Shown: piece by piece, positions 2,932 through 42,383 of the stretch
Layout: the number at the start of each line of letters is the position of its first letter
How positions within the stretch are numbered: the first letter of the stretch is position 1
NCBI RefSeq assembly: GCF_003605405.2
Contig: NZ_QYTW02000038.1
Coordinates: 1 to 42,383 of the forward strand
From: Siminovitchia terrae
GTDB taxonomy: Bacteria > Bacillota > Bacilli > Bacillales > Bacillaceae_C
Direction: 5' to 3'
DNA length: 42,383 nt
The notes under the pieces: model-generated
What the model was told of the DNA's origin: nothing
Database searches by the model: none
Seen by the model: only the letters and a program-made list of their open reading frames with translations
Made by a program: the position numbers and the translations under genes

Positions 2932-3705
2932 TTGTTTAAACACTCATTACTTAAAAGTGTATGTGCATTCATCATATTGTTTTTAACAGGGATGGTTCAG
3001 TTAAAGATCGCATCGGCTGTTGAGACAGGGGCCTCACCGTCAAAAGATGGATATCATGTTCCCATATTAATGTACCATGCGATTGATGAATACAAAGGAA
3101 ATGGCATGAAAGAATTGTATGTGACACCGGAAAATTTTGAGAGTCAGATGCTTTATTTAAAATCCGCCGGATTTACACCGATCACATTCGAAGACCTGTC
3201 GCATATTGGAAACATTAAAAAGCCAATCATCATTACATTGGATGATGGATATAAAAATAACATGAATGCTTATTACATCTTAAAGAAAATAAGTGATGCT
3301 TCATTTAAACCGAAAGCCGTCATCTTTATGATCGGAAAAAAAATAGGCAGCCAATCAGGGCTTTCTGTTAACCAATTAAGAGAAATCAGTGATTCCGGCA
3401 TTATAAGCGTCCAACCCCATACGGAGACACATCCAAGACTAACAGAAACCGTAAATTACACAAAAGAATTGCAGGATATAAAAGCAAAGTTGGAAAAAAT
3501 AACAGGACGAAAGGTTTCAACACTTGCTTATCCGTATGGAGATTATAATGATAAAGTGATTGAGGAAACAAAAAAGTACTATCAATATGCCGTTACGACA
3601 AATCCAGGTATAGCGAATACGACTGATTCTCCGTATGAACTGAAGCGTATACGTGTAAATTACAGCACATCATTGACTACCTTTAAAAATATGGTCAATC
3701 CATAA
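2932..3705 (+). CDS. Secreted polysaccharide deacetylase (NodB fold)
   Basis: A 257-aa exported enzyme expected to remove N-acetyl or O-acetyl groups from cell-wall or capsular polysaccharide. Residues 1-29 form a signal peptide (basic start, hydrophobic stretch CAFIILFLTGMV, then ASA). The NodB motifs are present: TLDDGY with Asp104-Asp105, the zinc-binding His163-x3-His167, and AYPYGDYN as motif 3. It starts with TTG, supported by GGGAGG at 2918-2923, about 8 bases upstream. It stands alone between purU and the purine riboswitch. The exact substrate cannot be predicted. Confidence 0.88.
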   Translation: MFKHSLLKSVCAFIILFLTGMVQLKIASAVETGASPSKDGYHVPILMYHAIDEYKGNGMKELYVTPENFESQMLYLKSAGFTPITFEDLSHIGNIKKPIIITLDDGYKNNMNAYYILKKISDASFKPKAVIFMIGKKIGSQSGLSVNQLREISDSGIISVQPHTETHPRLTETVNYTKELQDIKAKLEKITGRKVSTLAYPYGDYNDKVIEETKKYYQYAVTTNPGIANTTDSPYELKRIRVNYSTSLTTFKNMVNP

Positions 3706-3869
3706 CATCTTGCCAACAGAAACCTCCTTTTCACGAAGGGAATCAAATTTTCCTTCATGTAAAAATGTGGATGGGAATAAAACAACCATCTTTACCTGAG
3801 CAGCCGGCAGATACACGAAAAATGAAAAAGCATTTAGAGGAAACTCATACTTGAAAAAAAGTGAACAGA

Positions 3870-3875
3870 TATGAT
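3870..3875 (+). promoter_or_regulatory. Candidate -10 box before the purine riboswitch
   Basis: TATGAT at 3870-3875 lies about 37 bases before the aptamer. A poor -35 candidate, TACTTG, ends 16 bases upstream. This is the best sigma-A-like candidate I can see, but it is weak. Confidence 0.35.
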
Positions 3876-3911
3876 AAAGTATAGAAGGAAAAATTCTTAT
3901 AATCGCAAGCA

Positions 3912-3971
3912 TGTATAACCTCAATAATCTGGTTTGAGGGTCTCTACCAGGAACCATAACTCCTGACTACA
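3912..3971 (+). promoter_or_regulatory. Purine riboswitch aptamer, C74 (guanine-type) variant
   Basis: The conserved three-way junction is visible: short P1 (TGTA 3912-3915 with TACA 3968-3971), J1/2 TAA, P2 (CCTCAA with TTGAGG) closed by a loop containing CTGG, J2/3 GTCTCTACC, and P3 (CAGGA with TCCTG) with loop CCATAA. The L2 GG and L3 CC needed for loop kissing are present. The specificity base between P3 and P1 is C (3967), which in characterised purine riboswitches selects guanine over adenine. P1 is unusually short by eye and P3 carries a bulge. The aptamer precedes a PbuE-like efflux gene. Confidence 0.85.
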
Positions 3972-4007
3972 AAAATGGCAATTTTATTTTTGTAGTCAGG
4001 TTTTTTT
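3962..4007 (+). terminator. Riboswitch-controlled terminator before pbuE
   Basis: A 15-bp arm starting CCTGACTAC (3962-3976) pairs perfectly with ATTTTTGTAGTCAGG (3986-4000), followed by seven Ts. The left arm consumes the 3' strand of P3, the specificity base and P1, so aptamer folding and terminator folding exclude each other. Ligand binding should therefore allow read-through (an ON switch). Confidence 0.9.
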
Positions 4008-4069
4008 ATTTCTATAAAAAAGAATAAGAGGTTCATAAATGCAGTGTAACAGTATAAGGGGGAGCTTTA

Positions 4070-5248
4070 ATGAATGTAAGAGTATTTATACTTGCTGCAT
4101 CGACGATTGCAGTGGGGCTGGTTGAATTAATAATTGGTGGAATTTTACCAGTTATTGCTGATGATTTGCATGTTTCTCTTGGCACAGCCGGGCAGCTTAT
4201 TACAGTGTTTGCTCTTGTTTATGCCATTTCCGGTCCTGTCCTTTTATCATTAACGGCAAAAGTTGAACGGAAAAAGTTATACCTTGTGGCTTTATTTATA
4301 TTTTTTCTTGGGAATTTAATGACTTACTTCAGCCCTAATTTTTCTATAGTTATGGTTGCGAGAATCATAACAGCTATGAGTACAGCCCTAGTCGTTGTCC
4401 TTTCATTAACAATTGCTGCAAAAGTCGTTGAACCAGCACATAGAGCGAAAGCTTTGGGTTTTATTTATATGGGAATCAGCTCATCGCTTGTCTTAGGTGT
4501 ACCAATAGGCATCTTGATTACGGATCATTTTGGATGGCGAACTGTGTTTTTGGGAATTGCTCTTCTTTCGATCATATCTATTCTTTTAATCTATGTATTT
4601 TTAGAGAGTATTCCTACTGAAAAAGTCCAGCCTCTATCCGTACAATTAAAATCTCTTGGCAGCATTAAAATGGCGAGTGCTCATCTAACAACTATGTTTA
4701 TGCTGGCTGGGCATTATACGCTTTATGCCTATTTTACTCCTTTTTTGGAAACCACCTTAAACTTAGGTCAATATTGGATAAGTATTTGCTATTTCTTGTT
4801 CGGTCTCTCAGCCGTATTCGGTGGCGCCCTTGGTGGGACATTAGGTGATCGAATTGGGTCTCAAAAAAGTATTTTATTGGTCATCAGTTCCTTTGCCATT
4901 GTATTATTTTTACTTCCATATTCCACGTTTTCTTTTCCAATATTCCTAGTAGCGATGCTGCTATGGGGAGCACTAAGCTGGAGTCTTGCTCCTCCTCAGC
5001 AGAACTACATTATACAAATTGATCCTGATGCTTCTGATATCCAACAAAGCATTAACAATTCAGCTTTGCAAATTGGAATATCGTTGGGCTCAGCGATTGG
5101 CGGAGTGGTATTGGAGTATACACATTCAGTCATTAGCACAGCACATGTTGGTGCTGGAGTTGTTGTGATCGCTTTGATATGCGGGATTATTTCTTTAACG
5201 AGGCCCTACACGGTCAATCAAGCGGAAACATTAAAGCAAGAAGGTTGA
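4070..5248 (+). CDS. pbuE: MFS purine base/nucleoside efflux pump, PbuE-like
   Basis: A 12-transmembrane major facilitator of 392 aa that I recognise as close to B. subtilis PbuE (YdhL), which exports hypoxanthine, adenine and some nucleosides. The start (residues 8-28, [21 protein letters not shown]), the LSLTIA stretch and the [10 protein letters not shown] segment mid-protein match my memory of that protein. GGGGGAG lies 7 bases before the ATG. It is a single gene directly behind the purine riboswitch and terminator, so expression should follow intracellular purine level. B. subtilis pbuE has an adenine-type aptamer; the base here suggests guanine instead. Confidence 0.9.
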
Positions 5249-5401: not shown

Positions 5402-5584
5402 ATGAACGCTATGCGTGCACAGGAAATTGCCAATTCTCCAGTAATGGCCATTGTAATGTTGAATGGAGAAAGGGTGTATATCCAACACGTAGATGGAGAC
5501 AACGAAACAGCAAGAGTCTACCCGCTTGACGATCCTTCTAACGAACAGAATGTTCATCTATCTGATTTAGTGGAGCATGAATAA
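5402..5584 (+). CDS. sspH: Small acid-soluble spore protein, H type
   Basis: A 60-residue protein matching the SspH family: an N-terminal RAQEIANSPV segment, a central YIQHVDGD segment, an ARVYPLDDP segment, and an acidic tail. SspH proteins accumulate in the forespore core and are thought to be DNA-associated or protective. I use the ATG at 5402, with AAAGGTGG 7 bases upstream; a GTG lies immediately before it at 5399 but is too close to the ribosome binding site. It is monocistronic between pbuE and pbuO, with its own terminator. Confidence 0.9.
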   Translation: MNAMRAQEIANSPVMAIVMLNGERVYIQHVDGDNETARVYPLDDPSNEQNVHLSDLVEHE

Positions 5585-6004: not shown

Positions 6005-7291
6005 ATGGCTCTTTTTAGTCTGAAGGAAAACAATACGAACGCCCGTACAGAGCTAACAGCTGGAGTAACTACGTTTTTCACAATGGCTTATATTATTGTG
6101 GTGAACCCGGCTGTTCATGCTGCGGCAGGAGTTCCATTTGAACAAGTATTCATGGCTACGATCATATCAAGCATTATAGGAACTTTGATTATGGCATTCT
6201 TCGCCAATTATCCAATCGCTGTTGCCCCAGGGATGGGTTTAAATGCCTACTTTGCCAGTGTTGTTGCTTCTCAGGGAATTTCGTACCAAGTTGTGTTTGG
6301 TGCAGTTTTTCTAGCAGGAGCAATATTTGCCCTGTTGAGCTTTACAAAATTTAGGGAGATATTAATCAGTGCCATTCCTGAATCTTTAAAGTACGCAATT
6401 ACTGCAGGCATCGGCTTATTTATCGCCTTTTTAGGGTTTACAATGTCCGGTCTTATTGTTCCAGGTGAGGCAAATATCATCGAATTGGGTGATATACGTG
6501 AACCTATGACCGCTTTAACTATTGTAGGTCTTTTTATTACATTAATTTTAATGGCAAGGAATATTAAAGGAGCTTTATTTCTAGGCATGGCTGTAACGGG
6601 GATTATTGCCTACTTTTCCGGACAGCTCGAGTTCACAGGCTGGGTATCCGCACCGCCGACGCCTGTTTTCTTTGATTTGGATATTAGCGGAGTCTTTAAG
6701 CAAGGACTATATTCTATACTGTTCGCCTTTTTATTGGTAACCATATTTGAAACAACCGGAACAATCATAGGGGTGGCGGAACAGGGCGGTTTTATGAAAA
6801 ACGGACAGTTGCCAAGGGCAAAATCGGCGTTATTTGCTGATGCAAGTGCAACAATGGTGGGCTCTATGTTCGGAACAAGCCCTTCAAGTGCCTATATTGA
6901 GTCTTCAGCGGGTGTGGCTGCGGGCGGAAAAACAGGAATGACTACTCTTGTTGTAGCAGCGTTATTTGCTGTTTCTGTCTTCTTTACCCCTATCATCGGG
7001 GCAATCGCTAATGTAGCGGCAATTACAGCACCGGTTCTGATTATCGTCGGCTGTTTTATGATGGATGGGCTGGCACATATCAAATGGAGAAAGTTCGATG
7101 AAGCCTTCCCGGCTTTTGCAGTCATCATGGCAATGCCCTTGACATCAAGCATAGCTACCGGTATTGCTGTAGGGTTTATTACTTATCCTTTATTAAAATT
7201 GGTGACAGGAAAAGGAAAGGAAATCCATTGGATTATCTATTTATTTGCTGTTATTTTTGTTTTGCAAATGTTATACTTCCCGGCGAATTAA
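6005..7291 (+). CDS. pbuO: NCS2-family purine (guanine/hypoxanthine) permease, PbuO/PbuG-like
   Basis: A 428-aa integral membrane protein with about 12 hydrophobic segments, of the AzgA-type branch of NCS2 transporters. Diagnostic stretches include TAGVTTFFTMAYIIVVNP near the N-terminus, APGMGLNAYF around residues 75-85, and FGTSPSSAYIESSAG in the substrate-binding region. It takes up hypoxanthine or guanine by proton symport in characterised relatives. I prefer PbuO over PbuG because of the surrounding yt-type gene set; the substrate is inferred. GGAGGTG precedes the ATG by 7 bases. The PurR-box pair upstream supports purine repression. Confidence 0.85.
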   Translation: MALFSLKENNTNARTELTAGVTTFFTMAYIIVVNPAVHAAAGVPFEQVFMATIISSIIGTLIMAFFANYPIAVAPGMGLNAYFASVVASQGISYQVVFGAVFLAGAIFALLSFTKFREILISAIPESLKYAITAGIGLFIAFLGFTMSGLIVPGEANIIELGDIREPMTALTIVGLFITLILMARNIKGALFLGMAVTGIIAYFSGQLEFTGWVSAPPTPVFFDLDISGVFKQGLYSILFAFLLVTIFETTGTIIGVAEQGGFMKNGQLPRAKSALFADASATMVGSMFGTSPSSAYIESSAGVAAGGKTGMTTLVVAALFAVSVFFTPIIGAIANVAAITAPVLIIVGCFMMDGLAHIKWRKFDEAFPAFAVIMAMPLTSSIATGIAVGFITYPLLKLVTGKGKEIHWIIYLFAVIFVLQMLYFPAN

Positions 7292-10607: not shown

Positions 10608-10726
10608 ACTCTTATCCTGAGATGGTGGAGGAAACAGGTCCTTTGAAGCCCGGCAACCTGCTGTCTGCTTTACAGACAGAAAGGTGCTTACCTGTAGCAA
10701 GGCTATTAGCCTTGGGCGATAAGAGT
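10608..10726 (+). promoter_or_regulatory. SAM-I (S-box) riboswitch
   Basis: The aptamer has P1 arms ACTCTTATC (10608-10616) and GATAAGAGT (10718-10726), the conserved GGTGGAGGAAACAGGTCC and GAAGCCCGGCAACC blocks, and the AAGGTGCTTACC block with the GCAAGG turn. It senses S-adenosylmethionine. When SAM is bound, the downstream terminator should form and metK is switched off. Confidence 0.97.
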
Positions 10727-22494: not shown

Positions 22495-22726
22495 AAAGGA
22501 CTTAATATATACAACGGTTAAAAAGGACCAGTAATGGTGCCATCCTGTTTCAGAGAGTCGGCGGGAGGTGGAAGCCGACCAGGACCATCATGAACTCCCC
22601 TTTCATTCTGCAGGTGTGAAGGAACAGATCTGAAAGCAACGATCAATCTTGTAATACTTGCCGTATTCTGCGTTAAAGAATAAAGAAGTGAGTGGCCTAT
22701 GCACTAAATTGGGTGGTACCGCGGGA
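22495..22726 (+). promoter_or_regulatory. T-box leader (leucine), probable CUC specifier
   Basis: The T-box sequence TGGGTGGTACCGCGGG occupies 22710-22725 and pairs with the 3' end of uncharged tRNA. Upstream is a long stem I region containing GTCGGC/GCCGAC. In its 3' side the bulge TGAACTCCCC carries CTC at 22595-22597, the likely leucine specifier codon, which fits the downstream leuS. Uncharged tRNA-Leu should favour the antiterminator. Confidence 0.95.
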
Positions 22727-22732
22727 GAAAGC

Positions 22733-22775
22733 AACCTTCCGTCCCAGGAGTTTTCTCGGGGATGGGAGGTTTTTT
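22733..22775 (+). terminator. T-box regulated terminator
   Basis: AACCTTCCGTCCC pairs with GGGGATGGGAGGTT, followed by TTTTTT. It ends 26 bases before the leuS ATG. Confidence 0.93.
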
Positions 22776-42041: not shown

Positions 42042-42383
42042 ATAGGAAATTATAAAATTCTATGCTTGTGTATAACTTGTTTATCAGATTGTGCTGCGTC
42101 CAGCTCCAGCGCCTATCGACTAGCAGACTTTGCGCCTCCTCCTACGATAAGTCAACATCGACTCCGACGGACAGGACGTCCTAGTGCAAGCGAAGCGACA
42201 GGATGTCGCGTTTTGAGCCTGCCTTCCTCGCCGTGTTGTCTGGCTGCGAGTGCCATCGGCTCGAGGTCATAAGCCAATCGCTGCTGAAGGCAAACAACAC
42301 CTTCTTCAGCGCTCGTCTTATGCTTGTCGCCGATAAGCAGGCACTCTCGCACTTCGTGTTTCCTTTATCTCGTTGGAGTCACT
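42042..42383. repeat. GC-rich mosaic repeat, right copy (runs to the window end)
   Basis: Shares its first 124 bases with 39973-40096 and its last ~29 with 40105-40133, but has about 190 extra bases between. That insert contains AGTGCAAGCGAAGCGACAGG, also at 16139. No gene is seen. Confidence 0.85.

Follow-up and report, generated by a model that had tools for sequence, protein, structure and literature searches.

The locus lies in a window of 42,383 nucleotides (the whole stretch of Siminovitchia terrae DNA that was analysed) and comprises a purine aptamer, an intrinsic terminator and the gene of a PbuE-like exporter, all on the forward strand. A first-pass annotation had described positions 3912-4007 as a guanine-type purine aptamer driving a PbuE efflux pump as an ON switch; this span corresponds to the aptamer plus the terminator, and its coordinates fit. 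The features are:

3898..3903, + strand: candidate -10 box TATAAT, just 5' of P1 (read from the sequence)
3912..3915, + strand: P1 5' strand UGUA, pairing with 3968-3971
3916..3918, + strand: J1/2 UAA (Rfam alignment)
3919..3939, + strand: P2 hairpin with loop L2
3940..3947, + strand: J2/3 GUCUCUAC, 8 nt without insertion (Rfam alignment)
3948..3965, + strand: P3 hairpin with loop L3, 5 bp CAGGA/UCCUG
3962..4000, + strand: intrinsic terminator stem-loop, 17 bp
3967, + strand: ligand-identity base C, guanine type
3968..3971, + strand: P1 3' strand UACA
4001..4007, + strand: terminator U-run TTTTTTT
4056-4064, + strand: likely ribosome site, outside the terminator (read from the sequence)
4070..5248, + strand: PbuE-like MFS exporter, 392 aa, Pfam MFS_1

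The downstream gene is, as first proposed, that of a PbuE-like exporter, 65% identical over 388 aa to a B. subtilis PbuE reference sequence and 95% identical to a Bacillus norwichensis protein, its other close relatives being from Siminovitchia species. The protein passed no cut-off among the 25 NCBIfam models listed of 51, and a plasmid search with it returned no informative gene name among the matches. A search for the substrates of PbuE in passages of PMC7062661 and PMC10976475 turned up nothing beyond the genotype of a strain and the title of a cited work. Downstream of the exporter, past a small spore protein gene (5402-5581), lies a gene for a Xan_ur_permease family transporter (6005-7291); the whole window contains a single Purine match, so this gene has no purine aptamer above the cut-off. 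Other Rfam matches above their gathering scores are a SAM riboswitch (10609-10725), a T-box leader (22509-22749) and, on the minus strand, a Bacillaceae-1 RNA (42168-42233).

Aptamer class and ligand-identity base

Covariance-model scoring, suggested at the outset as a check, matched the full Rfam model RF00167 (Purine) to positions 3891-3989 (+) with 60.0 bits against a gathering score of 37 (cmscan; E 4.6e-8; best of its clan). The Rfam alignment bears out C, a guanine-type base, at 3967, between the P3 3' strand (3961-3965) with A3966 and the P1 3' strand, and the observation made in the first-pass annotation is confirmed. We take U3916, U3941, U3945 and C3967 to be U22, U47, U51 and C74 in xpt numbering, with U47 and U51 both kept; position 48, in the same numbering, is C here and C, U or A among the relatives aligned. 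With C74, U22 and U51 in place and an 8-nt J2/3 without insertion, the aptamer agrees with the guanine-I riboswitches of xpt, purE, yxjA and others. An adenine-type reading was dropped on account of C rather than U at position 74 (C3967), and a guanine-II or xanthine-II reading on account of the uninterrupted J2-3 and J3-1 and the retained U51. As regards 2'-deoxyguanosine riboswitches, which are marked by an altered binding pocket, the Rfam scan gave Purine as the best model of the clan, U51 is kept and position 48 is C. The pocket contacts of guanine-I aptamers are those named in PMC9295807, which also defines guanine-II and xanthine-II by insertions in J2-3 and J3-1, and xanthine-II additionally by U51G.

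P1 consists, as first noted, of 4 contiguous bp (UGUA/UACA), but this length is not odd: contiguous P1 helices span 3-6 bp in the 79 leaders measured (see below), the commonest length being 4 bp for the C-type (12 of 22) and 5 bp for the U-type (40 of 57), and PMC9756952 gives 3 bp as the minimum for B. subtilis pbuE. If the TATAAT at 3898..3903 is a -10 box, transcription would start at about 3908-3911; no -35 box was identified upstream of it, and TATAAC or TATAAT occurs at about the same place in the aligned leaders of the genus (L139-L144). In this genus (window 3925-3960; L001-L004 and L017) L2 reads AAUCUGG, versus AAUAUGG, AAUACGG or similar in most relatives aligned, and L3 is shorter in most of them; a matched change in the loop-loop contact is possible.

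Terminator overlap and predicted ON logic

The 5' arm of the terminator (3962-3978) begins 5 nt 5' of the identity base and is made up of the P3 3' strand, A3966, C3967, the P1 3' strand and the nucleotides that follow, and C3967 faces G3995 in the terminator stem. The overlap claimed in the first-pass annotation therefore holds, and from this arrangement, in which P1, J3/1 and P3 all contribute to the terminator as on a pbuE-type platform, ligand binding is predicted to turn expression on. Judged from the shared nucleotides, the terminator is shown to be unable to coexist with P3 and P1. It is the only terminator-like site found on the + strand within 3700-4100. An OFF layout of the guanine-I kind, with the terminator apart from the ligand-binding junction, was not found, and OFF logic was dropped because terminator and bound aptamer exclude one another.

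For the region 3891-4008 the predicted folding energy is -30.4 kcal/mol, with a z of -4.1, and none of 200 shuffles reached so low a value. Nearest-neighbour energies, which leave out loop-loop contacts and ligand, are -13.2 kcal/mol for P1+P2+P3, -13.6 for P2+P3 and -28.4 for P2 plus terminator; P1 thus brings no gain in predicted stability, and the ON state would have to be held kinetically and by ligand. In stepwise lowest-energy folds of the growing RNA, P2 and P3 persist until the 3' end reaches about 3984, a small downstream hairpin is added at 3987-3990, a longer hairpin captures the P1 3' strand by 3993, and P3 is invaded by 3999. Since the lowest-energy fold never contains P1 and the terminator invades late, ligand would have to act during transcription, holding P1 and P3.

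These properties place the RNA beside the B. subtilis pbuE (ydhL) adenine riboswitch, with which it shares the type of gene, the aptamer fold, a terminator that uses P1, J3/1 and P3 and, by prediction, the ON logic, and from which it differs in the identity base, U in B. subtilis and C here. The strand-exchange scheme and ON logic of pbuE are described in PMC7707468 and PMC9756952, and ON control by burying pieces of a terminator is reported for certain glycine, adenine and lysine switches (PMC2258182). The first-pass annotation had seen in a guanine-activated exporter a different wiring; the layout instead matches B. subtilis pbuE in all but the ligand base. Its interpretation is supported in part. 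The guanine-I riboswitches that the pocket resembles are OFF switches, in contrast to the ON logic predicted here, and the terminator of yxjA leaves the ligand-binding junction unshared (PMC9756952), whereas here the junction is shared. The statement that guanine switches usually turn genes off stands for guanine-I, which commonly lowers expression and is OFF in Paenibacillus, but meets a predicted exception in guanine-II (PMC9295807). Guanine ON switches have accordingly been predicted before: guanine-II, found before PRT genes in Paenibacillus, is guanine-sensing and predicted ON like the RNA described here, but has junction insertions that are absent here and controls different genes, while xanthine-II, consistent with ON control, and the 2'-dG/guanosine variants share the three-way junction and the predicted ON logic, xanthine-II differing by U51G and junction insertions (same source). 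Five guanine riboswitches of B. anthracis are mentioned as tested with a reverse reporter (PMC5552694). Searches of open-access papers found no description of a C-type pbuE leader, though one may have been published elsewhere.

To control for the wiring, one script was run over 34 purine-aptamer loci, 5 from the own genome and 29 from the family, the family loci being among the highest scorers and leaning to classical guanine-I types; 29 of the 34 were scored and 5 had no recognised core (L082, L104, L111, L123 and L124). The identity base lies inside the terminator in two of the 29, the leader in the window and a second locus of the same genome (L085), and not in the other 27, among which the arm of L098 starts 6 nt after the identity base and the reading of L114 looks unreliable. 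All five Purine matches of the own genome (L081-L085) carry C, so none is adenine-type.

The second of these loci, L085 (C21:42201-42298), is a variant purine aptamer (52.9 bits) upstream of a gene whose protein comes nearest to the iron-sulphur subunits of xanthine dehydrogenases without reaching their cut-offs. At the border of J2/3 and P3, L085 and L145-L149 (the own genome and four genus relatives) have CUACAGGG in place of CUACCAGG, the base preceding GCUACG being variable. Matches of this type were found in five of six genus genomes, with one weak family hit among 34 genomes, and the sequences of L145-L148 were inspected. The L085 terminator includes the identity base, which suggests an ON switch that serves purine oxidation, its ligand perhaps being xanthine, hypoxanthine or guanine.

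The leader and its identity base among relatives

Among the best 80 of 135 PbuE relatives found, a sample that leans towards the protein in the window, an aptamer lies upstream in 78 and is absent at L043 and L068. Of these 78 leaders, 57 carry U as identity base and 21 carry C (C in 22 of 79 with the window included), and in all 79 the terminator pairs 8-10 of 10 aptamer bases, the overlap being predicted by folding the RNA from the P3 3' strand to the U-run on its own. A pattern for the leader, so strict that genomes it fails to match could nevertheless carry one, was found in 20 of 34 genomes of the own family (16 C, 4 U; all 20 directly before PbuE), in 44 of 249 in an order sample (6 with C) and in 41 of 398, at 43 sites, in a class sample (6 with C), the last two samples overlapping in genomes. 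All six genus genomes searched have C. Pooling gave 153 loci (80 named and 73 others) and, after removal of 2 without a leader and 26 exact repeats, 125 distinct leaders, in all of which terminator and aptamer are predicted by folding to overlap.

Opposite the identity base, the terminator usually carries the base that matches: the 125 leaders comprise 31 C-G, 88 U-A and 3 U-G combinations and 3 with an unpaired C. For the initial 79 leaders (19, 3, 2, 55), Fisher's test, which ignores kinship, gives p 3e-13. A kinship-aware test on 7 independent pairs on supported branches gives p 0.0625, above 0.05; of the 7 pairs, on average 4.6 have a facing base that follows the letter, 0 have one that runs counter to it and 2.3 show no difference, and a smaller set of 5 independent pairs also gave no significance. 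The direction of covariation is clear, while the test corrected for kinship does not reach significance. Three C-type leaders (L025, L058 and L072) keep in the terminator the A that suits U, without a matching base, and the U-type L131 carries the G that suits C; all four give the impression of a recent change in the identity base. Terminators of C-type leaders are weaker on average than those of U-type leaders (-19.2 vs -25.6 kcal/mol; 79 leaders).

The C/U label requires 7 changes, 5 of them forced by branches with at least 95% support, on a tree of 80 PbuE proteins, which are the 81 that include the protein in the window less L046 with its broken reading frame; on a tree of 112 proteins at least 10 changes are needed, 7 forced by well-supported branches. 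Both are quick trees with some long branches, and the direction of change is not given by them. Within one genus of the own family (g150), nine matching genomes are C-type and one is U-type (L131), and the aptamer of L131 is identical to that of L134, over the stretch compared, except for the identity base.

PbuE is the gene behind 112 of the 125 leaders (34 C, 78 U), and other genes stand behind 13, all of these U-type, so that C-type leaders, 34 in number, occur before PbuE alone (Fisher p 0.019 with kinship ignored); the C-type genomes G436, G467, G445 and G478 do not enter this check of downstream genes. The 13 other genes (L157, L158, L161-L163, L171-L175, L181, L182 and L184) are deaminase-like. 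Curated models were applied to four of the proteins: adenosine deaminase cut-offs were passed at L157 and L184 and that of adenine deaminase at L181, while the L171 protein, an amidohydrolase, is closest to MTA/SAH deaminase but below the cut-off; the remaining nine were judged by their sequence start alone, which resembles one of these four. U-type leaders before deaminase-like genes suggest an adenine ON regulon that is wider than pbuE alone. A leader that is adenine-type before deaminase-like genes and variable solely before the exporter fits a pump for several bases. We think it likely that in natural evolution a one-base change has converted the PbuE leader from adenine to guanine sensing, or back, at least 7 to 10 times, with ON logic kept and the facing terminator base mostly readjusted, the same leader type before deaminases of adenine compounds being U-type in the 13 cases seen.

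Competing readings and meaning

We regard it as quite probable that the locus carries, before pbuE, a ligand-ON purine riboswitch like that of B. subtilis pbuE but with a pocket of guanine type; as far as sequence and predicted folds can tell, it is a guanine-I pocket on a pbuE expression platform. Plentiful guanine (or hypoxanthine) would bind the nascent aptamer before the 3' arm of the terminator emerges, and the bound ligand would hold P1 and P3 and block strand invasion, allowing RNA polymerase to read into pbuE and the excess base to be exported; without ligand, the terminator would invade P1 and then P3, and transcription would stop. In the relatives, a single-base change seems to have shifted the readout of this switch several times, from adenine (U) to guanine (C) or the reverse, mostly together with a matching base in the 3' arm of the terminator.

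The same ON switch might answer in the cell to hypoxanthine, or to both bases, rather than to guanine alone. A mixed signal would suit a multi-base pump, and the guanine-I pocket discriminates only about 10-fold against hypoxanthine and xanthine (PMC9295807); guanine is, however, the named ligand of the pocket class and nothing in the sequence favours hypoxanthine, and we hold this reading to be possible but rather doubtful. That the RNA still senses adenine in the cell, with C3967 a neutral or recent change, is very unlikely: U predominates among the named pbuE leaders (57 of 78), and the facing base suits the other letter in three C-type and three U-type leaders, but C is found in all six genus genomes, G faces it in 31 of 34 C-type leaders, and C at this position is the accepted guanine determinant (PMC11477304).

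Little probability attaches to an OFF switch, as in most guanine-I riboswitches, or to one acting on translation. Guanine-I riboswitches commonly lower expression (PMC9295807), and the four other purine aptamers of the own genome also carry C, L081 and L083 having separate terminators; against this, the one terminator-like site within 3700-4100 uses P3, J3/1 and P1 nucleotides, and the likely ribosome site (4056-4064) lies outside the terminator. Equally improbable is a decayed riboswitch retained as a terminator alone, to which the short P1 and the weaker average C-type terminator would lend themselves, since core and overlap are conserved in the genus and a P1 of 3 bp is enough for B. subtilis pbuE (PMC9756952).

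If the preferred reading of a ligand-ON guanine-type switch is true, a guanine-activated switch would have been built from an ordinary guanine pocket and the well-studied pbuE platform, and ON or OFF logic would be a property of the platform and not of the ligand. The near-identical C-type and U-type leaders form a natural series for studying how a riboswitch alters its ligand while its terminator, in which the identity base takes part, stays adjusted, and to which purine excess the exporter of each lineage responds.
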